Shown piece by piece: positions 895 through 51,594 of a stretch of DNA of 51,594 bases (positions are counted from its first letter, which is position 1; each line of letters begins with the position of its first letter). The notes below the pieces were generated by a model, which was not told the DNA's origin, did not search any database, and saw only the letters and a program-made list of their open reading frames with translations. Source of the stretch: a virus; the IMG/VR virus record IMGVR_UViG_3300048834_000016, positions 1 through 51,594 of that record; one strand, written 5' to 3'. The position numbers were made by a program, and so were the translations under genes.

Positions 895-2502
895 TTAATA
901 CCTAATCCCACCAAATCGTGGGTGGAACTGAATAATGTTACTGGTGCTCTTACCTTCAGAGCTTTTACGTCGAGGTTTTATAGCAATTTCTACTGCACTT
1001 GCTAATGCATCTTTAATGTCATCGTGTGATGGTCTAGCCAAGATAAGCTCTTCTTCAAGAAGATCAGTATAACCCCCTTTAAAATGCCATATATGTTGAT
1101 TATCATAACGATGCTCTAGAGCCGATGCAATACGTTCTTGTTTAGTACCTTCATTACGTGTAGGACGGTGTTCATCAATAGATAGGGGCAAGCCTTCTTC
1201 ACGAAGCTTATCTTTCAAATCTCTAACAATAACAGCCTGAGCTACTGTAACTTCTGCTCTTAGCTTTTTGAATTCCCACTTAGAATGCAATATAGCTATT
1301 CGTTTGAAATATTCAGAAATCTTATCACTCTTGAATACATCTAGATCAAGGACGTATATGAAACCGTCTTCATCCATTCCTATAACAACAATAGCTGTGT
1401 TATCTGATTTCTTACTTAAGCTGAAAGCAAAGTCAATAGCTGCATATACGTTCAATACTTTATTTCTATACATCCAACGACCATCAGACTGTCGTAAGAA
1501 TTTCTTATCATAGTATTGAAACTTTTCTCTTGAAATTCTATTACTGCCTGGATCATTAGGATCATTATAATATTGAGCGTAAAACTGCACACGATCCGAA
1601 TACTCTGCCCTAATACGTGAAAGCACTTGAGAATCAAAGCCAAAGAACTTCTTATCAGTACGCATTGTTTTAGGCCACAAGAAAATACCTTCTTGCTCTA
1701 CAGCATACTCTTTGATTTCCCATACAGGCTTACGAGTAGTAATATTTCCATCTAAATCATATACATCATATTCTTGAGATTTCCATACTGCATATACATC
1801 CGATGGATGATAACGTGTTCCACAAGCCATTGTAAATCCACCAGCATTACGAATAGAAGTAAATTGACTACTCTTCTTCATAACACTATCTCGCCCATCT
1901 TCAGTGTAAGCGTTCTCAGGGACAACCAAGTCATCTGCAATAATAATGTCTGCGTGCCATCCAGTGGTGTTAGTTGTCAATCCAGCCGTAGATACTGTAG
2001 CATCTCGAATACCCTCTTCCTTACGTTTTAAGTGATCAATAGAGAACTTTCTCTGATTCCATTTCTCACGTTTACCTTCTTGAGGATTAATATATTCAGG
2101 AAAATATCGTTGATATACAGAGCTGGAAAGAATATTCTGAATAGCATAGAGCTGTGTCTCAGCTAATTCCGCTGTGGCAGATACGTATAATACAGTTACT
2201 TCTGGATGACGAGTGATAATCCATGCAGCCCATGTAGCCACCTTATGGCTCTTTAAATGGGCACGTGGGAGCATAATAAGCTTATTGCTAGTTAGGTCCT
2301 CACCTTGACCATAGAGGCTGTAATCCTGCATCCATTGGAAAAGTTCTTTATGAATATCTCCATACATGTACCCAGGATTAACAAGCTTTGCAAAGAAGAA
2401 GAGATCGGTGAGAGCGGTTTCTCTAATTTGCTTGGCCTCTTCAGGCATTTTCTCTAGCTTCTTCTTAGCCTCTACTCTCCACAATTCTTCTTCTTTACTC
2501 AT
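895..2502 (-). CDS. terL: Terminase large subunit (packaging ATPase and nuclease)
   Basis: This 535-residue protein is the DNA-packaging motor. The N-terminal ATPase shows a Walker A-like LPRAHLKSHK at about residues 78-87 and a Walker B DIIIADDL at about 185-191. The C-terminal RNase H-like nuclease shows the first catalytic aspartate in YAAIDFAFS near residue 357 and a late acidic motif HDDIKDALA near 495. Length is normal for T7-like and related terminases. Its start codon overlaps the small-subunit stop as TAATG, so translation is probably coupled. The portal gene follows 8 bases later. Confidence 0.95.
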   Translation of the reverse strand: MSKEEELWRVEAKKKLEKMPEEAKQIRETALTDLFFFAKLVNPGYMYGDIHKELFQWMQDYSLYGQGEDLTSNKLIMLPRAHLKSHKVATWAAWIITRHPEVTVLYVSATAELAETQLYAIQNILSSSVYQRYFPEYINPQEGKREKWNQRKFSIDHLKRKEEGIRDATVSTAGLTTNTTGWHADIIIADDLVVPENAYTEDGRDSVMKKSSQFTSIRNAGGFTMACGTRYHPSDVYAVWKSQEYDVYDLDGNITTRKPVWEIKEYAVEQEGIFLWPKTMRTDKKFFGFDSQVLSRIRAEYSDRVQFYAQYYNDPNDPGSNRISREKFQYYDKKFLRQSDGRWMYRNKVLNVYAAIDFAFSLSKKSDNTAIVVIGMDEDGFIYVLDLDVFKSDKISEYFKRIAILHSKWEFKKLRAEVTVAQAVIVRDLKDKLREEGLPLSIDEHRPTRNEGTKQERIASALEHRYDNQHIWHFKGGYTDLLEEELILARPSHDDIKDALASAVEIAIKPRRKSSEGKSTSNIIQFHPRFGGIRY

Positions 2503-8835: not shown

Positions 8836-9280
8836 CTAGTTTCTTTCTTACTTGTTCATATTGTTCGTAATAGTAGTTTCTTTCAATGAGGACTCTTTCT
8901 GCTCTGGCAGCTTCCCCAATAAGAAACTCTCCATCTTCTCTATAAAGCTCTGCTCCTGTACAGGCTCTTTCAATTGAGGGATTGTCACGATAGACTGTGA
9001 TGTACTTACGTGAGGGCCTGTTGCGCAGCTTGCTACGAAGATCGTTAGCAGTAGTGTTAAGATTTTGAATCTCTTCATTCTTCATCTCTTCTAATTTAAG
9101 AACTCCTGTAAGAATAGCTTTTTCAGTTTCATCATTCTTCTTTATAAGCTCTTGTTGTTCTTTATTCCATTTAGCGTTATTAGACTCTACAGCACTATTT
9201 ACTAGAGATATGTGTACGTACACACCTATAACCGTAATAACGCCTATAATAGCCCATTTAATCCAATTTAGCATCCCCAT
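8813..9280 (-). CDS. Rz: Rz-like inner-membrane spanin
   Basis: This 155-residue protein has one N-terminal transmembrane segment (about residues 8-27) followed by a long charged coiled-coil-like periplasmic region (KWNKEQQELIKKNDETEKA), the standard layout of i-spanins that help fuse inner and outer membranes in the last step of lysis. The lipoprotein partner is embedded in another frame within it. Its start overlaps the endolysin end by 23 bases and its end overlaps the spike start. Either ATG at codon 1 or codon 3 could be used. Confidence 0.88.
   Translation of the reverse strand: MGMLNWIKWAIIGVITVIGVYVHISLVNSAVESNNAKWNKEQQELIKKNDETEKAILTGVLKLEEMKNEEIQNLNTTANDLRSKLRNRPSRKYITVYRDNPSIERACTGAELYREDGEFLIGEAARAERVLIERNYYYEQYEQVRKKLDERNKSK
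8848..9078 (-). CDS. Rz1: Rz1-like outer-membrane spanin lipoprotein, fully nested in Rz
   Basis: This 76-residue ORF lies wholly inside Rz in a different frame. It has a lipoprotein signal (MKRFKILTLLLTIFVASC) with the lipobox ending at Cys18, followed by a short periplasmic part ending in a charged tail. Nested lipoprotein ORFs inside Rz genes are a well-known two-component spanin design. The lipobox argues strongly that this is real coding sequence rather than an overlapping shadow. Confidence 0.85.
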   Translation of the reverse strand: MKRFKILTLLLTIFVASCATGPHVSTSQSIVTIPQLKEPVQEQSFIEKMESFLLGKLPEQKESSLKETTITNNMNK

Positions 9281-9773
9281 CTCCTAGACACATCTTGGCT
9301 TCATACATCCGTCTATTATACAGCCCCTGTACAAACTTCCATTCACCATTCTTCTTTACATAGCTCCATACAGGCTTACCACTAGGAGCTTTATACATAG
9401 CATAACAAGCTTCTGTATATCTTCCTTCGTTATAAAGCTTTGCTGTCCTACTAGAACAAAATCCACTAACACCTATGTTATAGGCCATTAACGTAAATGC
9501 ATCATGTGTGTGTTGTTGTAAAGGCTTAGTAATACACTTCAATACACCATTACTATGTGTAGTAAGTTCTTTACGAAGAAAGGCATTACATTCTTCTACA
9601 CTGTATTTCTTATTGAACACAATATCTTTACCAGTGTACCCTTGACACACTGTAGGAATCCCTGCTATGTCGTAATAAGCATAATACCTAGTACCTTCCC
9701 ATAAAGCAGCACTACTTACTAACGAAGCTGTTACTACACCTACAAGCCATTTGTTATTCTGTATTATTGACAT
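9258..9773 (-). CDS. SAR-type endolysin (lysozyme-like muramidase, GH24)
   Basis: This 171-residue peptidoglycan hydrolase begins with a hydrophobic but weak signal-anchor-release segment (about residues 9-24, Gly/Ala/Ser-rich), directly followed by the catalytic core. Glu26, Asp35 and Thr41 have the same spacing as the E-D-T triad of phage P21-type lysozymes (WEGTRYYAYYD, then GIPT). The protein can therefore be exported by the host Sec system and released later. Several cysteines could regulate it by disulfide exchange. It follows the holin with a 20-base overlap. Confidence 0.92.
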   Translation of the reverse strand: MSIIQNNKWLVGVVTASLVSSAALWEGTRYYAYYDIAGIPTVCQGYTGKDIVFNKKYSVEECNAFLRKELTTHSNGVLKCITKPLQQHTHDAFTLMAYNIGVSGFCSSRTAKLYNEGRYTEACYAMYKAPSGKPVWSYVKKNGEWKFVQGLYNRRMYEAKMCLGDGDAKLD

Positions 9774-9972
9774 CTTTACCTCTAAACTTATTCACCATTG
9801 CTGCAATGGCATTATAAGCTTTAGGGATTTTCTCAATAATAATCAATATTGATACTACAGCAGATAGAATCAAAATCCATTGCTCTAATGGAATACCAAA
9901 CAAACCTAAAGCTGCTGGACCAAGTGCTGTCGCAACCTTAGCACTTTCTGGAATTCTTTCATAAATTTCCAT
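9754..9972 (-). CDS. Holin or pinholin
   Basis: This 72-residue protein heads the late leftward operon. It has two predicted membrane helices (about residues 11-26, Ala/Gly-rich, and 32-47, Ile/Leu-rich) and a basic then polar C-terminus (MVNKFRGKDVNNTE). Because the following endolysin has a signal-anchor-release segment, a small-hole holin that only depolarises the membrane would suffice. The start is preceded by AGGAAAGG. I assign it by topology, size and neighbourhood; no specific holin family was recognised. Confidence 0.82.
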   Translation of the reverse strand: MEIYERIPESAKVATALGPAALGLFGIPLEQWILILSAVVSILIIIEKIPKAYNAIAAMVNKFRGKDVNNTE

Positions 9973-9984
9973 ATTACCTTTCCT

Positions 9985-9993
9985 ATTATACTA
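9985..9993 (-). promoter_or_regulatory. TAGTATAAT motif upstream of the lysis operon
   Basis: Read leftwards this is TAGTATAAT, identical to the 9-mer before the small terminase. It lies 12 bases before the holin start codon and overlaps the approach to its ribosome site, so if it is a -10 box the leader would be only a few bases long. It may be coincidental. Confidence 0.25.
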
Positions 9994-10055
9994 AAACGTA
10001 TATTCACTTCGTTCATATACATCCTCTCAGTGCCCGAAGGGCGTGTTAGCACATG

Positions 10056-10091
10056 CTTGAGCATACTCTTGAGAATATACTTAAGTATATA
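10056..10091. repeat. Iteron cluster 1: three tandem 12-bp repeats
   Basis: The units are CTTGAGCATACT, CTTGAGAATATA and CTTAAGTATATA, with no spacer. Together with cluster 2 the consensus is about CTTGAGAATATA. Tandem 12-bp spacing puts successive sites on roughly the same face of DNA, as in replication-initiator or regulator arrays. Confidence 0.85.
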
Positions 10092-10196
10092 CAAAGGGAA
10101 GAAAAACCTATTATTCTTCAATGTTGTAATTTCTTGTAGAAATTTAGAAGCTGCAATGCATACTAGTACAAGTACCCCTACACCCCTACTATACCT

Positions 10197-10232
10197 CTTG
10201 AGTATATCCTTGAGAATATACTTGAGAATTAT
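10197..10232. repeat. Iteron cluster 2: three tandem 12-bp repeats
   Basis: The units are CTTGAGTATATC, CTTGAGAATATA and CTTGAGAATTAT. The middle unit is identical to the middle unit of cluster 1. The clusters have the same orientation and their starts are 141 bp apart. Confidence 0.85.
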
Positions 10233-10301
10233 TCTTATTACTATTGCTGAATGATAATGAGAATTGGTTGCAATACCCCCTCTCAATGATTTTCATTTAG
10301 T

Positions 10302-10332
10302 CTGTGCATATCCTGTGCATATCTTATCCACA
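10302..10332 (+). other. Candidate replication origin core: 11-bp tandem repeat plus DnaA box
   Basis: CTGTGCATATC occurs twice in direct tandem (10302-10312 and 10313-10323), immediately followed by TTATCCACA at 10324-10332, a perfect match to the bacterial DnaA-box consensus. The surroundings are AT-rich and lie between divergent transcription units, where phage origins often sit. Origin function is inferred. Confidence 0.55.
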
Positions 10333-10516
10333 ACTTATCAACCAACACTGGTTACAAACCCGCATGGATGCTAGCGATTGTCTCTAGACGCCTTCGGCAT
10401 TACATATATATGCGAGTGACAACGAGCGCATGCGAAGCATCCTATAAACACTGTATGTAATTGCATATATACATGGTGCGGCATAGCATGCTATATTCTC
10501 CCTTGTGTTGGATGTC

Positions 10517-10536
10517 GTGTTGCTTATATGCAACAC
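10517..10536. promoter_or_regulatory. Operator-like palindrome upstream of the first early promoter
   Basis: GTGTTGC, 6 bases, then GCAACAC form a perfect 7-bp dyad ending 13 bp upstream of the -35 hexamer at 10550. Its size and place suit a dimeric regulator. No obvious phage regulator gene was recognised, so a host protein or a DNA structure is equally possible. Confidence 0.4.
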
Positions 10537-10549
10537 ATGAATTTGGGGG

Positions 10550-10578
10550 TTGACAATCCTTTTGTTCTATGCTCTAAT
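10550..10578 (+). promoter_or_regulatory. Strong sigma70-type promoter P1
   Basis: A perfect -35 TTGACA (10550-10555), a 17-bp spacer and -10 TCTAAT (10573-10578) read rightwards. Transcription would begin near 10585, about 30 bases before the first boxA-like site. Confidence 0.8.
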
Positions 10579-10613
10579 ACATTCATGCATCGGGTCATCG
10601 TGCCTTGTGCATA

Positions 10614-10627
10614 GGCTCTTTAACAAT
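10614..10627 (+). promoter_or_regulatory. boxA-like antitermination site 1
   Basis: GGCTCTTTAACAAT closely matches the boxA of proteobacterial rRNA leaders (TGCTCTTTAACA), which binds NusB and S10 in RNA. It lies in the presumed leader of P1 and abuts the 5' strand of a 12-bp long-range stem. Confidence 0.6.
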
Positions 10628-10757
10628 GTAGCGTGTGTGTCTAGCGTTGCTTACGTCGTGCGGTGCGGTTACCCGGTAAGGCTGACAATGCACAAGCTCT
10701 AGCCCTTGAATGTGGCATCAATAGAGCTTGACAGTGACAACAAATACACGCTACATT
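10625..10757 (+). ncRNA. Predicted structured RNA 1, closed by a 12-bp stem
   Basis: AATGTAGCGTGT (10625-10636) is perfectly complementary to ACACGCTACATT (10746-10757). Inside lie a second perfect 9-bp stem, CAAGCTCTA (10693-10701) with TAGAGCTTG (10722-10730), and a possible CTTAC/GTAAG hairpin. This gives a multibranched RNA of about 133 bases placed just after boxA, resembling the boxA-then-processing-stem order of rRNA precursors. No ORF explains the conservation of pairing. Confidence 0.55.
10728..10757 (+). promoter_or_regulatory. Probable sigma70-type promoter P2
   Basis: A perfect TTGACA (10728-10733) is followed after 18 bp by TACATT (10752-10757). It overlaps the 3' strand of structured RNA 1 and would start a transcript near 10764 that enters the second boxA-like module. 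Confidence 0.5.
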
Positions 10758-10812
10758 AGAGCCATTCGTTAGCTATACATCGTGATAGCTGACAGGGCAT
10801 ACATGTTATGCC

Positions 10813-10826
10813 GCCCTTTAACAATT
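10813..10826 (+). promoter_or_regulatory. boxA-like antitermination site 2
   Basis: GCCCTTTAACAATT matches the rRNA boxA core. As at site 1, it directly precedes one strand of a long-range inverted repeat. Confidence 0.5.
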
Positions 10827-11050
10827 AGACTGTGTGAATAGGTGCAACAATTGATTGCCCTATTCCGTTACACCCTACCTTATGCGAAAACCGCAGGGAT
10901 ATGCACGTACATAGGATGCTATGCGTGTGTGTCTTGTGCCTGAGTATGCGGACAGGACGGGTTATAGAATGGAATAGATCAACAATCAATACATGGCCTA
11001 TGGAAATCCGCTAGATATTCTCGAACCGGTGATTAATTACAGCACAGTCT
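10827..11050 (+). ncRNA. Predicted structured RNA 2
   Basis: AGACTGTG (10827-10834) pairs with CACAGTCT (11043-11050). Nested hairpins include GAATAGG (10836-10842) with CCTATTC (10859-10865) and TGCG/CGCA at 10883-10895. The closing stem is shorter than in RNA 1, so the fold is less certain, but the order boxA then closing stem is repeated. Confidence 0.4.
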
Positions 11051-11055
11051 TATTT

Positions 11056-11070
11056 GTTCGTTAACAATTC
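11056..11070 (+). promoter_or_regulatory. boxA-like site 3
   Basis: GTTCGTTAACAATTC is a third, weaker match to the boxA core, 243 bases after the second and directly after the end of structured RNA 2. Confidence 0.4.
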
Positions 11071-11082
11071 ATCATTCTGAAA

Positions 11083-11162
11083 ATCATCTAGTCCAATGGG
11101 CCTCGATTAATAGATGATAGCATCACCCGCTAATACATTCCCTAGCATCCTATAATGTATTA
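11083..11162 (+). ncRNA. Two strong hairpins downstream of boxA 3
   Basis: ATCATCTA (11083-11090) pairs with TAGATGAT (11111-11118), and TAATACATT (11131-11139) with TAATGTATTA's last nine bases (11154-11162). Both stems are perfect. Neither has a following U-tract, so they do not look like terminators. They may be the folded part of a third module without a closing stem. Confidence 0.4.
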
Positions 11163-11206
11163 TGGCGTTAGCTATTGTCCTTTGATTGATTCACCGGCGG
11201 GGATGG

Positions 11207-11235
11207 TTGACAGAATGGTTTTCTTAGTGCATAAT
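11207..11235 (+). promoter_or_regulatory. Strong sigma70-type promoter P3 of the early operon
   Basis: TTGACA (11207-11212), a 17-bp spacer and CATAAT (11230-11235) read rightwards. The transcript would start near 11242, about 36 bases upstream of the first early ORF. It is probably used by unmodified host polymerase at once after infection. Confidence 0.8.
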
Positions 11236-11277
11236 TTAACCATGTTCTAAGCAAACTGTTCTGAAAAGGAAATTAAA

Positions 11278-11406
11278 ATGGAATACTACTTCTTCAACGA
11301 TGATGCACCAGAATACAATCAACGTATGGATAACATTCGCAATTCATACATAGGATGGATTGACGGTGCATTAGTTTGTACACTTGAATTGTTGCCAAAG
11401 GAATAA
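11278..11406 (+). CDS. Small early protein (42 residues), unknown
   Basis: The first ORF after promoter P3 starts at ATG 11278 behind AAAAGGAAA and ends at 11406. The product starts MEYYFFNDDAPEYNQ and ends LELLPKE, and is acidic with several aromatic residues. Small acidic proteins made first by phages often bind and inhibit host enzymes, but nothing here identifies a target. Spacing from the promoter and a good ribosome site are the main evidence for coding. Confidence 0.65.
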   Translation: MEYYFFNDDAPEYNQRMDNIRNSYIGWIDGALVCTLELLPKE

Positions 11407-11488
11407 CTCACAACAAATGGTTCTATAATAAGAGCCATTGATTGTGCGCTATTGCACAGCTATGCCTTATTAGGTAAAGGAGAATATC

Positions 11489-12052
11489 ATGGCGTTTGAT
11501 AAAAATGTATTTGAAGGTAAGTTTAAGGTCAGCATGGGCAAGCTGGCACAAGGGGAAAAGACTGTTCGTGAGGAATTGAATTGGGCTAGTCGTGCTGTGC
11601 TGGAAGCCCTGCATTCCACGGAGAATATCGGTTATGTCAATCAATTGATTGGTGTTCTTACGCCTGTCAATCGTAAGGCTGCCATTGTTTTCTTCAAGCA
11701 TTTTGGTGGCTTCCATTATGACGATGCCACTGCCATGTTCACAAAGAAAAGCAAAAAGCGTTACGATCAAGCGCATCGAGATGCTATTGCATTCTTGCAA
11801 GACCCGAATAACAATATGTTTAGCTGGGCACAGCGTCATATTGAAATTGAGCAAAAACCTTTTGATCCGACATCATTCAAACGTGGTTTTAAGAACTACA
11901 TTGCGAAGCATTTGCAACAAGCGAAAGATAATGGCCTTGACCAGAAGGAATTGCTTGCCATTATGTTCGAAGCCGGTGTTGAAGTTGATGCCATTGTGGA
12001 TGTTATGGCTAAGGCAGGCATGGTTGATGTGAAGGAAGCCGAACAAGAATAA
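11489..12052 (+). CDS. Early protein of unknown function (187 residues)
   Basis: It starts at ATG 11489 behind AAAGGAGAATATC, one of the best ribosome sites in the window. The product begins MAFDKNVFEGKFKVSMGKL and looks like an all-alpha soluble protein with basic patches (KKSKKRYDQAHRD) and an acidic end (DVKEAEQE). No catalytic motif is evident. It lies between the early promoter and the first terminator, so it is probably among the most abundant early products. Its codon use seems somewhat richer in GCC and GGC than downstream genes. Confidence 0.85.
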   Translation: MAFDKNVFEGKFKVSMGKLAQGEKTVREELNWASRAVLEALHSTENIGYVNQLIGVLTPVNRKAAIVFFKHFGGFHYDDATAMFTKKSKKRYDQAHRDAIAFLQDPNNNMFSWAQRHIEIEQKPFDPTSFKRGFKNYIAKHLQQAKDNGLDQKELLAIMFEAGVEVDAIVDVMAKAGMVDVKEAEQE

Positions 12053-31766: not shown

Positions 31767-32849
31767 ATGGAACAGAATATTCAATCTCTTCGCTCTCAAC
31801 TCTTGATGCGACGAACATATAATCGTACTAAGAATCAAGATGGTACAATATTTGAATCCTTCGAGGAAACAGTGAATCGTGTAATTGACCATCAAGGCTG
31901 GTTGTGGACACGTTCAAACAATAAGCCGCTTGATAACGCACAGAAAGAAGAACTACGTGAATTACGACAGCTCATGCTCGAACGGAAAGTGCTCATGTCG
32001 GGACGTACACTCTGGTTGGGAGGTACTGAAGTTGCTAAGCGACGGGAGGCATCTCAATTCAACTGCTCGTACACTAACGTGGAAACAGTGTATGATGTTG
32101 TGGACATATTGTGGCTCCTTATGCAAGGTTGCGGTGTTGGCTTCCGTCCTATCGTTGGTCAACTTACTGGCTTCCAAAATCCGATCAAAGAACTAGAAAT
32201 TATTCGTTCTTCTCGTACATCTAAGGACGGTGCTCAGAATAATACTGAGATGTATGATCCTTCCACTGGTGTTTGGACAATTCAAATTGGAGATAGTGCA
32301 GAAGCTTGGAGTAAGAGCATTGGTAAGCTGATGGCTCATAAGTATCCTGCTTCTAAGCTGGTTCTAGACTTCTCTCAGATTCGTCCAGCGGGGGAGCGTC
32401 TTAAGGGGTATGGATGGATTTCTTCTGGAGACGCTTCCTTAGCAAAGGCATATGAGAACATTTATAGAATTCTTAATCGCAGGGCTGGCAGCCTTCTTAG
32501 TCGTATTGATCTTCTTGATATTGTCAATTGGCTCGGTACTGTACTCTCTTCTCGTAGGTCTGCTGAGATTGCGCTATTTGAATACGGAGAGGATGAATGG
32601 CCGGAATTCACGGTAGCTAAGAAAGGTATTCATAAAGATAATAATGTACAACGTTTCCAAAGTAACAATAGCTTGCTGTTTAAGCATAAGCCCTCCAAGC
32701 AAGAATTGGAACACATTCTTCAACTCGTGGTTGATTCAGGTGGCTCTGAACCCGGATTTATTAATGGAGCAGCAGCCGTTAAGCGTGCTCCTTGGTTTAA
32801 GGGAGTCAATCCGTGTGCCGAAATTCTACTCGGTAACAAAAGTTTCTGT
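31767..32849 (+). CDS. nrdJ: Class II (B12-dependent) ribonucleotide reductase, exon 1
   Basis: Exon 1 codes for residues 1-361 of a 661-residue enzyme that reduces ribonucleotides with an adenosylcobalamin radical. Cys100 in QFNCSYTN is the first redox Cys and Cys350 in NPCAEI the thiyl-radical Cys. Cys361 in NKSFC, 11 residues on as in the Lactobacillus enzyme (Cys408/Cys419), is the second redox Cys. The exon ends exactly after the Cys361 codon. No small radical subunit gene (nrdB) is present, which fits class II. Unspliced, translation would stop after 7 intron codons, at 32873. Confidence 0.93.
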
Positions 32850-33620
32850 CTGAGTGGCAGCATTACAGAGTAATCTGTATTGAAAACTTCTCTAAAAACG
32901 GTGAACCTCTCTAATTGAGACAATACCGTGCTAATTCCTTAAGGAACTGTGTAACGACTATGGATAAAAAAGAAATCACTAAGAAAATGGCATTTCTCTG
33001 CATGTCTGATGCAGGGTTGACAATGCATAAAGGTTGTATTAATGCGTCATTCCACCTTACCATGTGTAAGGAGAATAATGATATGGCGGATTATGCAAAA
33101 GCTCTCCTAGATGAGTTAAAAATTGGGTATCGTTATCACGAGTGTGATAAATACTTCCACCTTAACAGTAAGGTACACCCCTTCCTAACTGTGTTGTGGG
33201 AACGTATCTATCAAGATGGAAGACGCGTTCCTAGTCCACACGATTTTAAACTGTTGGATTGGGAAGCTGTTGCTGTTATGTATATGTGTGATGGTAATAT
33301 ACAGAGGGCAGGTAAACGATGGTATCCAATGATTAATATGTGTAAGTGGTCTTATGCTGAACTGTGTTGGGTAAAACATCAGTTTAAAGAGAAGATCGGA
33401 TTAGACATAAACATCTATAAGTGTGGTAAGTATTGGCGTGTAGGTGTTCCTGCGCACCATTGCGATATGTTTTTCGAAAACATTAAACCATATATGCTTA
33501 AGAGCTTTGATTATAAAATGGCATCCGTACGAGAAGCCCCTTAAAGGGTGGTGATATAGTCTGTTCTATATGGTGACATATAGAGATAAGTAGAAATAGC
33601 TTATCCTTGTAACAATAAAG
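32850..33620 (+). ncRNA. Group I self-splicing intron in nrdJ
   Basis: Joining 32849 to 33621 restores the conserved NKSFC-NLSEVDVAKF. Exon 1 ends in T and the intron ends in G, as group I introns require. P1 can form between CTGT (exon end) plus C and GGCAG at 32856-32860, with a T-G wobble at the splice site. Core-like elements are a Q-like segment near 32910-32940 (ACAATACCGTGCTAATTC), an R-like GTGTAACGACTA near 32949-32960 and an S-like GGTGATATAGTC near 33550-33562. Length is 771 bases, including the endonuclease ORF. Confidence 0.88.
32960..33544 (+). CDS. Intron-encoded LAGLIDADG homing endonuclease
   Basis: ATG 32960 lies within the intron core (the ATG overlaps the R-like element). 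The 194-residue protein has two degenerate LAGLIDADG helices, KMAFLCMSDAG near residues 9-19 and EAVAVMYMCDGN near 103-114, in the layout of single-chain homing nucleases. It would cut intronless nrdJ alleles at the insertion point. It might also act as a splicing maturase. The ORF ends 76 bases before the 3' splice site. Confidence 0.82.
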   Translation: MDKKEITKKMAFLCMSDAGLTMHKGCINASFHLTMCKENNDMADYAKALLDELKIGYRYHECDKYFHLNSKVHPFLTVLWERIYQDGRRVPSPHDFKLLDWEAVAVMYMCDGNIQRAGKRWYPMINMCKWSYAELCWVKHQFKEKIGLDINIYKCGKYWRVGVPAHHCDMFFENIKPYMLKSFDYKMASVREAP

Positions 33621-34523
33621 AACTTAAGTGAGGTTGATGTTGCAAAATTCCGTGGAGATTCTGCTGGACTCCGCCGAGCTATCCACTTGGCTGCTAGGGC
33701 GAACTATCGACAAACTTGTGTTAATCTTCGCGACGGCATTCTGCAAGAGGCATGGCATCTCAATAACGAGTTTCTTCGACTCTGTGGAGTGGGGCTTACA
33801 GGTATCGTCAGACGGCCAGACCTCTCTCCTTACGATTACACCGAGCTACAACGAACAGCTACAGCCGGAGCTTATTCAATGGCTGACGAATTTGGGACTC
33901 CGCGTCCTAAGAACGTCACCACCATTAAGCCCTCTGGAACCCTGAGTAAGATTATGGATACTACTGAGGGTGTTCATAAACCTCTTGGTAAATACATTTT
34001 CAACAATGTGAACTTTGGTAAGTTTGATCCTCTTGTGCCTCTGTGTCGTGCAGCAGGTTATAAGGTGGTTGATAATCCAAATGATCCAGAAGCAGTTCTT
34101 ATCACGTTTCCTGTTAAGTGGGAGGATGTTCCATTCGATAAGATTGTTAAGAACAATCAAGAGATGGAAGTTAATCTTGAGAGTGCAATCTCTCAATTGG
34201 AACGATACAAGATGTTGATGGAGAATTGGTGTCAACAGAATGTATCTGCAACTATTAGTTATTCAAAGGAAGAAGTAAATGGCATTGTGGAGTGGCTTTA
34301 TCATAATTGGGATAGTTATGTCGGAGTATCTTTCCTGTTTCGGACTGATCCCACTAAATCTGCTAAAGACCTCGGATACGACTACCTCCCCCAAGAAGTA
34401 GTTACTAGGGAGGTTTATGAAGCTTACGCAGCTAATATTCAGCCTATCGACCTAGAAGCATCTAACGATATTGATGCTCCTCTGGAAGATGATTGTACAA
34501 CGGGCTCTTGCCCTATTCGTTAA
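33621..34523 (+). CDS. nrdJ: Class II ribonucleotide reductase, exon 2
   Basis: Exon 2 codes for residues 362-661, starting NLSEVDVAKFRGD. It includes the barrel segments RQTCVNLRDGI and NVTTIKPSGTLSKIMDTTEG (the phosphate-binding loop region) and ends DDCTTGSCPIR, whose two cysteines (653 and 658) form the C-terminal thiol pair that re-reduces the active site. A glutaredoxin gene follows 9 bases later as the probable electron donor. Confidence 0.93.
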   Translation, partial: NLSEVDVAKFRGDSAGLRRAIHLAARANYRQTCVNLRDGILQEAWHLNNEFLRLCGVGLTGIVRRPDLSPYDYTELQRTATAGAYSMADEFGTPRPKNVTTIKPSGTLSKIMDTTEGVHKPLGKYIFNNVNFGKFDPLVPLCRAAGYKVVDNPNDPEAVLITFPVKWEDVPFDKIVKNNQEMEVNLESAISQLERYKMLMENWCQQNVSATISYSKEEVNGIVEWLYHNWDSYVGVSFLFRTDPTKSAKDLGYDYLPQEVVTREVYEAYAANIQPIDLEASNDIDAPLEDDCTTGSCPIR

Positions 34524-50227: not shown

Positions 50228-50337
50228 TAATGTTCAATGTATATTCTTAAGGGTCACTCACTCACTCACTTTACGTTCGTTCATTCGTTCCCTCTTAAGT
50301 ATTTACTAAGTAAGTATGAACTTAACCCTTTTTTTGA
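50228..50337. repeat. Short-repeat spacer upstream of the late tRNAs
   Basis: The spacer contains a TCACTCACTCACTCACT run near 50253, an ACGTTCGTTCATTCGTTC run near 50273 and TTAAGTATTTACTAAGTAAG near 50294. Flanking CTTAAG copies could pair. No gene or clear terminator is seen; it may hold tRNA processing sites. Confidence 0.5.
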
Positions 50338-50595: not shown

Positions 50596-51586
50596 TTAGC
50601 CATATCCGTTCCAATAGACTGTTCAACTTGTAAATCTTCGCTAGTTTGTTGTACCATTCGTTGAGTTTCAGCTTGTTCGTCAATACCGATATTAGGACGA
50701 AACAACGAATAACGAGAGAATCCAAGAACATCTTCAACCATCTTGGCAAGTTGTTTGCTACTCGTATGAGGAGCAATTTGTTGCCAAATAGGTGTATTAG
50801 CAAGTCCTGTAAGATTCTGAACGATTTGAGCTTGAGCAGCAAAATGCCTAGCTCCAATTGGACGAAGTACACCAGAAGCAGTAATATCTTCTTTAGTAAT
50901 CTCCATAAAGCGTTCAGCACCTAGATCGTTATCAAGAACTCTAATCCAATCAGTGCTATCCATAGATCGACGAGACTTTTCAAGCATAGCGTTAAGAGAG
51001 GGTTCTAGAAGTTCAATTTCAAACGTAGTAAGCTTCTCTTGGAAGATGCGTCCTGCTGCATTCTGTAATTCTTGCACTTCAAACTTCGTCTTTTCACCTG
51101 GAGAACGAATACCCATTGCTTCACGAGGAGCACCTGCATACTGTTCCATTCGCATTTCAAGACGATCAATGTTATTATCTGCTTGAATAACCCATTGAGC
51201 ATTCCGTGCTAGTTCTGTTACTTCACCATTATCGTCAATATGAATCTGCTCTGCAGGGCCGTACACAAACTCATTAACATCTCCCTTAATAACGATAGGA
51301 GGTAGAATAGCTAAGTCCATAGCATCTGCTTTAAGATTCTCTAGATGATCCATCCTATACTGCATTCCAACCAGATTATCTAGTGGACCCATTGCCCAAA
51401 GATTATCGGGCCTTGTACGCCATCCTACGTGGTAAATAGGGGCATGTCCAAGCCAGTTGTCGAAAGGTTCATTACGAATAGTCCACATACGATCTACAAT
51501 AGTAATCATACGATCAGACTGATATTCATCAGAATCTAGATTATGAATGTCTCCATAGAACTCTAGAATTTCAACATATCCGCTTT
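50592..51586 (-). CDS. Portal protein, C-terminal part (runs off the right edge)
   Basis: This is the rest of the portal gene started at 886; the two parts are in the same frame when 51460 is joined to base 1. It includes the wing and crown region (EQIHIDDNGEVTELARNAQW, RSPGEKTKFEVQELQNAAGR) typical of T7-type portals, and ends EQSIGTDMAK. Bases 51461-51586 duplicate 1-126. The stop overlaps the next gene by ATGA. Confidence 0.88.
51461..51586. repeat. Terminal direct repeat, right copy
   Basis: Exact copy of bases 1-126, marking circular closure of the assembly. Confidence 0.95.
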
Positions 51587-51594
51587 AGATCGGA
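51587..51594. other. Probable sequencing adapter remnant
   Basis: The final AGATCGGA equals the first 8 bases of the common Illumina adapter and departs from the sequence expected after base 126 (GAAGGTAT). It should not be treated as phage DNA. Confidence 0.85.

Follow-up and report, generated by a model that had tools for sequence, protein, structure and literature searches.

Phage T7 carries a fixed terminal repetition, and its concatemer junction has short repeat arrays nearby. These arrays are of a 7-bp CCTAAAG type, and T7 supplies its own RNA polymerase. Bacterial and plasmid origins are marked by arrays of DnaA boxes, in which TTATCCACA boxes stand in tandem at about one helical turn. 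The pac site of phage SPP1 is organized as pacL-pacC-pacR, where the small terminase subunit (TerS, gp1) binds pacL and pacR and recruits the large subunit (TerL) to cut pacC between them (PMC6316719; PMC4737164). Published direct terminal repeats (DTRs) of Zobellviridae span 74-138 bp (PMC9960094).

The DNA analysed here, termed the window, is the whole 51,594-nucleotide viral contig IMGVR_UViG_3300048834_000016. The gap between its divergent operons resembles the DTR regions of the Zobellviridae phages O4, phiRIO-1, and VpV262 in gene layout, in the gap itself, and in the core of the cut site (a variant in VpV262). Its predicted repeat of ~116 bp, the termini of which are derived by comparison, is also alike in length. 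Unlike the window, these three phages have neither CTYRAG triplets nor a perfect DnaA box in the gap. SPP1, compared by description, likewise has a terminase cut flanked by repeats; however, it packages by the headful mechanism and its site lies in the TerS gene region, whereas the window is predicted to have fixed end repeats and an intergenic site. T7, also compared by description, shares a fixed terminal repeat with adjacent short-repeat arrays and differs from the window in the type of array and in its polymerase. The tandem TTATCCACA boxes at about one helical turn recall bacterial and plasmid origins, but the analysis recognised neither an initiator gene nor an unwinding element, and most relatives have no such boxes.

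The region is probably, at roughly 75%, a concatemer junction at which a linear phage genome carrying a short DTR is cut and its packaging begins. The initial annotation had proposed a replication origin in which the 12-bp repeats act as iterons. A packaging or terminus role for the repeats is much more likely, because they flank, at a near-fixed distance, the site corresponding to the physical genome end of O4, phiRIO-1, and (as a variant) VpV262. The argument is comparative. It draws on where relatives have their genome end, on the conservation of the core and of a second site, and on the repeats, which keep a near-fixed offset and vary together on the left and right. Use of the same cut by the window phage and binding of the repeats by terminase are extrapolated from these.

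Terminus core and predicted terminal repeat

The window appears to represent a Zobellviridae-type phage by its homologous terminase and common gene order. TerL is ~70% identical to that of CW02, PA11, and O4, and the order of genes agrees with Zobellviridae phages: late genes leftward, early genes rightward, amidoligase genes, primase/helicase, a sigma factor (PHROG 1740, 5e-16), and PolA. Among the window proteins scanned, a subset of the open reading frames (ORFs), no RNA polymerase was found. The gap lies between divergent operons, as first annotated; the last leftward (late) ORF begins at 9972, and clear rightward (early) ORFs first appear at ~11278 and 11489. Megablast of positions 9000-12000 against phage records returned no match, and an Rfam search of the gap gave a chance-level match only. 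Elsewhere, at 31767-34523, a LAGLIDADG-type ORF separates the two ORFs of a split ribonucleotide reductase, an arrangement that suggests an intron or intein-like insertion.

The two CTTGAG triplets of the window enclose the core AATTT-N5-AG..A...GCTGCAA/TGCAT...CCCC..CCCC, where the slash denotes the cut. The core marks the start of the DTR in O4 (74 bp) and phiRIO-1 (121 bp); in VpV262 (DTR of 138 bp) a recognisable variant takes its place. The end repeat of O4 is exact, starting at GGGTCAA/TGCACC and ending at GGTGTA/TTGCAC. The annotated repeat of phiRIO-1 has identical copies and starts at AGAAATGTTAGAGGTGCTA/TGCACC, also given as GAGGTGCTA/TGCACC; the VpV262 variant reads AGAAATATTCGAGGTGTG/TCTCC, also given as GAGGTGTG/TCTCC. 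Termini of phiRIO-1 and CW02 were taken from record annotation and sequence only. Because the same core lies between its triplets, the DTR of the window is predicted at ~10157-10272 (Table 1).

A degenerate core pattern retrieved 56 viral stretches, leaving 52 distinct regions after dereplication, the window and named phages included; 46 of the 51 non-window loci encode homologues of window proteins. Over these regions the mean best-match score of the second site is 9.79 against 8.62 +/- 0.10 in shuffles (~12 sd above). This enrichment is a group-level statistic, and the site in the window matches 10 of 13 positions. Both marks of a Zobellviridae-type DTR junction are thereby recognisable in the window, the core at the predicted repeat start and the second site at the other end. 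The distance from the repeat to the first early gene is ~1.0 kb, as in phiRIO-1 and VpV262, and one relative's contig (L044) terminates exactly at GGGGTGTA. In Klebsiella phage Klyazma, the same gap contains a repeat of 711 bp, verified by Sanger sequencing (PMC9960094). Its late-side boundary falls at ~+83, some 8 bp beyond the second site and not at the first cut, so the terminus rule is not uniform.

The window contig is a circular assembly. Its ends (1-126 and 51461-51594) consist of a 126-bp overlap followed by 8 bases, AGATCGGA, that resemble the start of an Illumina adapter; the contig end was rejected as a genome terminus and is considered an assembly artefact. In the right flanks of several relatives, the words TGAGAAT/ATTCTCA are over-represented immediately within or beyond the terminal repeat; in the window they occur at about 10221-10265. 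They slightly resemble half-sites of an iron-regulator box and could be part of the repeat, a host-factor site, or chance.

Table 1. Positions of junction, terminase, and early-leader features in the window.
Feature	Position	Strand	Remark
Large terminase subunit (TerL)	895..2502	-	homology
Candidate small terminase subunit, 166 aa	2502..3002	-	directly upstream of TerL; proposed repeat binder
Repeat cluster 1, units CTTGAGCATACT CTTGAGAATATA CTTAAGTATATA	10056..10091		late side (left), outside predicted terminal repeat
Conserved terminus core AATTTCTTGTAGAAATTTAGAAGCTGCAA/TGCATAC	10128..10163	+	predicted cut 10156/10157; aligns with DTR starts of O4, phiRIO-1, VpV262 (variant)
Predicted DTR, about 116-117 bp	10157..10272		by homology
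C-rich block ACCCCTACACCCCT	10174..10187	+	just within predicted terminal repeat; kept in most relatives
Repeat cluster 2, units CTTGAGTATATC CTTGAGAATATA CTTGAGAATTAT	10197..10232		inside predicted terminal repeat
Second palindrome-like site GTTGCAATACCCC	10267..10279	+	predicted right end of terminal repeat
DnaA-like box TGTGCATAT, one mismatch	10303..10311	-	within first CTGTGCATATC
DnaA-like box TGTGCATAT, one mismatch	10314..10322	-	within second CTGTGCATATC
Perfect DnaA box TTATCCACA	10324..10332	+	only copy in window
Promoter-like TTGACA-17-TCTAAT, TG before -10	10550..10578	+	read by eye; candidate first early promoter
boxA 1 GCTCTTTAACAAT	10615..10627	+	sequence
boxA 2 GCCCTTTAACAAT	10813..10825	+	sequence
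boxA-like 3 GTTCGTTAACAAT	11056..11068	+	sequence

DnaA boxes and leader elements on the early side

Just past the terminal repeat are DnaA-like sites, which would be an element of their own on the early side. As first annotated, the 11-mer CTGTGCATATC is doubled, at 10302 and 10313; like the perfect box beside it, it occurs nowhere else in the window. Since the 11-mer contains TGTGCATAT, an inverted DnaA box with one mismatch, three DnaA-like sites fall within 30 bp, the densest such cluster of the window. Across the regions, TTATCCACA on either strand is found 18 times in 49,862 bases of right (early) flank, across 11 regions, compared with a mean of 0.6 and a maximum of 6 for permuted 9-mers. 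Its density elsewhere in the same loci is 0.013 per kb, ~28 times lower than in the early flank, and the left (late-side) flanks have none. Significant clusters (p <= 0.005) occur in 11 of 51 right flanks versus 0 of 52 left flanks, and the tandem spacing of 11 bp recurs in the window, L045, L053, and L059.

A cluster of DnaA boxes beyond chance is present on the early side, and host DnaA likely binds there. What had been noted as a DnaA element is a real feature, but its density does not by itself establish that replication starts at it; the sites could still mark such a start. Among the early ORFs scanned, again a subset, no initiator gene was recognised. The open-access literature searched yielded no report of DnaA boxes in phages of this kind.

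The boxes might instead act as a sponge, with many genome copies titrating DnaA, or regulate the early promoter through DnaA bound ~200 bp upstream. Either role would involve only the DnaA sites and could coexist with a packaging role for the repeats. The boxes of the window do follow the terminal repeat and precede the first promoter-like site, and their number and spacing differ among phages, as such roles would allow. However, one to four boxes per genome is low for titration early in infection, and this explanation is rather unlikely overall.

Downstream, the 1-kb early leader of the window contains repeated boxA elements (TCTTTAACAAT), one exact copy and two variants. In the right flanks of the regions, boxA-type TCTTTAACA is the top enriched 9-mer of an unbiased count, with 27 sense copies versus 1 antisense in 17 of 52 regions. 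About 10 copies sit 50-80 bp downstream of the promoter-like word TTGAC[AT]. These words resemble the boxA of rRNA operons, described in one account as bound by NusB and NusE (PMC4807359). Antitermination by host Nus factors through the leader boxA would be a guess from this likeness. Hairpin words also lie on either side of the junction (10032-10042 and 10390-10398), UUCG-looped in each outgoing transcript, GCCCGAAGGGC on the left and GCCTTCGGC on the right; the latter recurs in the right flanks of 14 relatives.

The 12-bp repeats and their possible readers

Two triplets of 12-bp repeats with starts 141 bp apart had been described, and both are present. The six CTYRAG-type units start at 10056, 10068, and 10080 and at 10197, 10209, and 10221, which places them at -101, -89, and -77 and at +40, +52, and +64 from the predicted cut. 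The clusters are the best two 3x12-bp tandem runs of the entire window, and 5000 simulated gaps produced no such triplet. Their reported common orientation holds in the letters, but it means less than it seems because CTYRAG is a palindrome-type word and one window copy reads CTTAAG.

Across the regions, the repeats are likewise placed with respect to the cut. CTYRAG occurs on both sides in 13 of 52 regions, and 12 of these 13 have their first copy on the right between +37 and +41, with further copies at ~12-bp steps. Overall, 39 copies lie at -130 to -45 and 31 at +36 to +66, compared with a background of 8 in -400 to -140 and 23 across +200 to +1300; none lies from -40 to +20. Left and right sides use the identical variant (orientation) in 13/13 regions, 8 with CTTGAG and 5 with CTCAAG, barring two CTTAAG copies, and there is no mixed case. 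The chance of such a split if the sides were independent is 1 in 1287 by our arithmetic, which ignores relatedness. The two clusters therefore probably share a single reader. Not all relatives carry such repeats, given that 39 of 52 regions are without CTYRAG on both sides. When regions without CTYRAG were tested for other repeat families by shared words, nothing emerged; the six of 52 regions with p < 0.05 were all CTYRAG cases, so no lineage-specific repeats are claimed elsewhere.

Terminase is a plausible reader, given that its cut anchors both clusters. In the proposed mechanism, terminase would recognise the junction and cut GCTGCAA/TGCAT, with a second cut at a similar site near 10272, and the ~116-bp stretch between the cuts would end up as the repeat at either end of the genome. 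Flanking the first cut, the two CTYRAG arrays would most likely be bound by the small subunit, or by a different protein of packaging or end processing, and the bound small subunit would position the large one. TerS is the somewhat favoured binder. The candidate TerS gene product matches PHROG 8035 (4e-60), a family of unknown function, and weakly the TerS family PHROG 4102 (0.0015); its predicted fold (pLDDT 77) had no PDB match in a fold search. Counting against TerS as the reader, the DNA-binding domain of phage SF6 TerS has little preference for pac repeats (PMC4737164).

A dimeric regulator might instead bind each repeat as a dyad (CTYRAG, e.g., ATATACTTAAGTATAT) near a late promoter; late-gene regulation was the alternative raised in the initial annotation. 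The near-palindromic words spaced 12 bp apart, the position of cluster 1 at 84 bp upstream of the first late ORF, a one-mismatch copy at 50240 (-) ahead of the scaffold/capsid genes, and the phage-encoded sigma factor would all suit late-operon operators. This role is nevertheless doubtful: one cluster falls within the predicted terminal repeat and keeps a near-constant offset from the cut, triplet arrays are found nowhere else in the window, and it is the left cluster whose distance varies while that of the right cluster, nearest the cut, is constant.

An origin of the kind first proposed, with an initiator recognising the repeats as iterons and host DnaA opening the DNA at the neighbouring boxes, is improbable; the early-side enrichment and 11-bp tandem spacing of DnaA boxes would fit it, but the CTYRAG repeats track the terminase cut and not the boxes (L018, L002, and L038 have repeats without a perfect box, and L045, L059, and L071 the reverse), and ~40 of 51 regions have no significant DnaA cluster. 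The cumulative GC skew does reach its minimum at this gap, as an origin would predict; it is set aside as evidence because skew follows gene direction and is fully confounded with the divergence of the operons.

Genome ends and replication start

The packaging-junction reading would provide a sequence rule for genome ends in a phage family, consisting of the core, the second site, and, in a subset, the flanking arrays. With such a rule, termini would be predictable in metagenomic genomes without read data. More speculatively, a subset of lytic T7-supergroup podoviruses without their own RNA polymerase may use host DnaA to start replication at the array beside the genome end, which is unlikely on the present comparison. 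If true, origin, terminal repeat, and packaging signal would be one block. The recurrence of DnaA boxes beside genome ends turns the start of replication without a phage RNA polymerase into a directly testable question.
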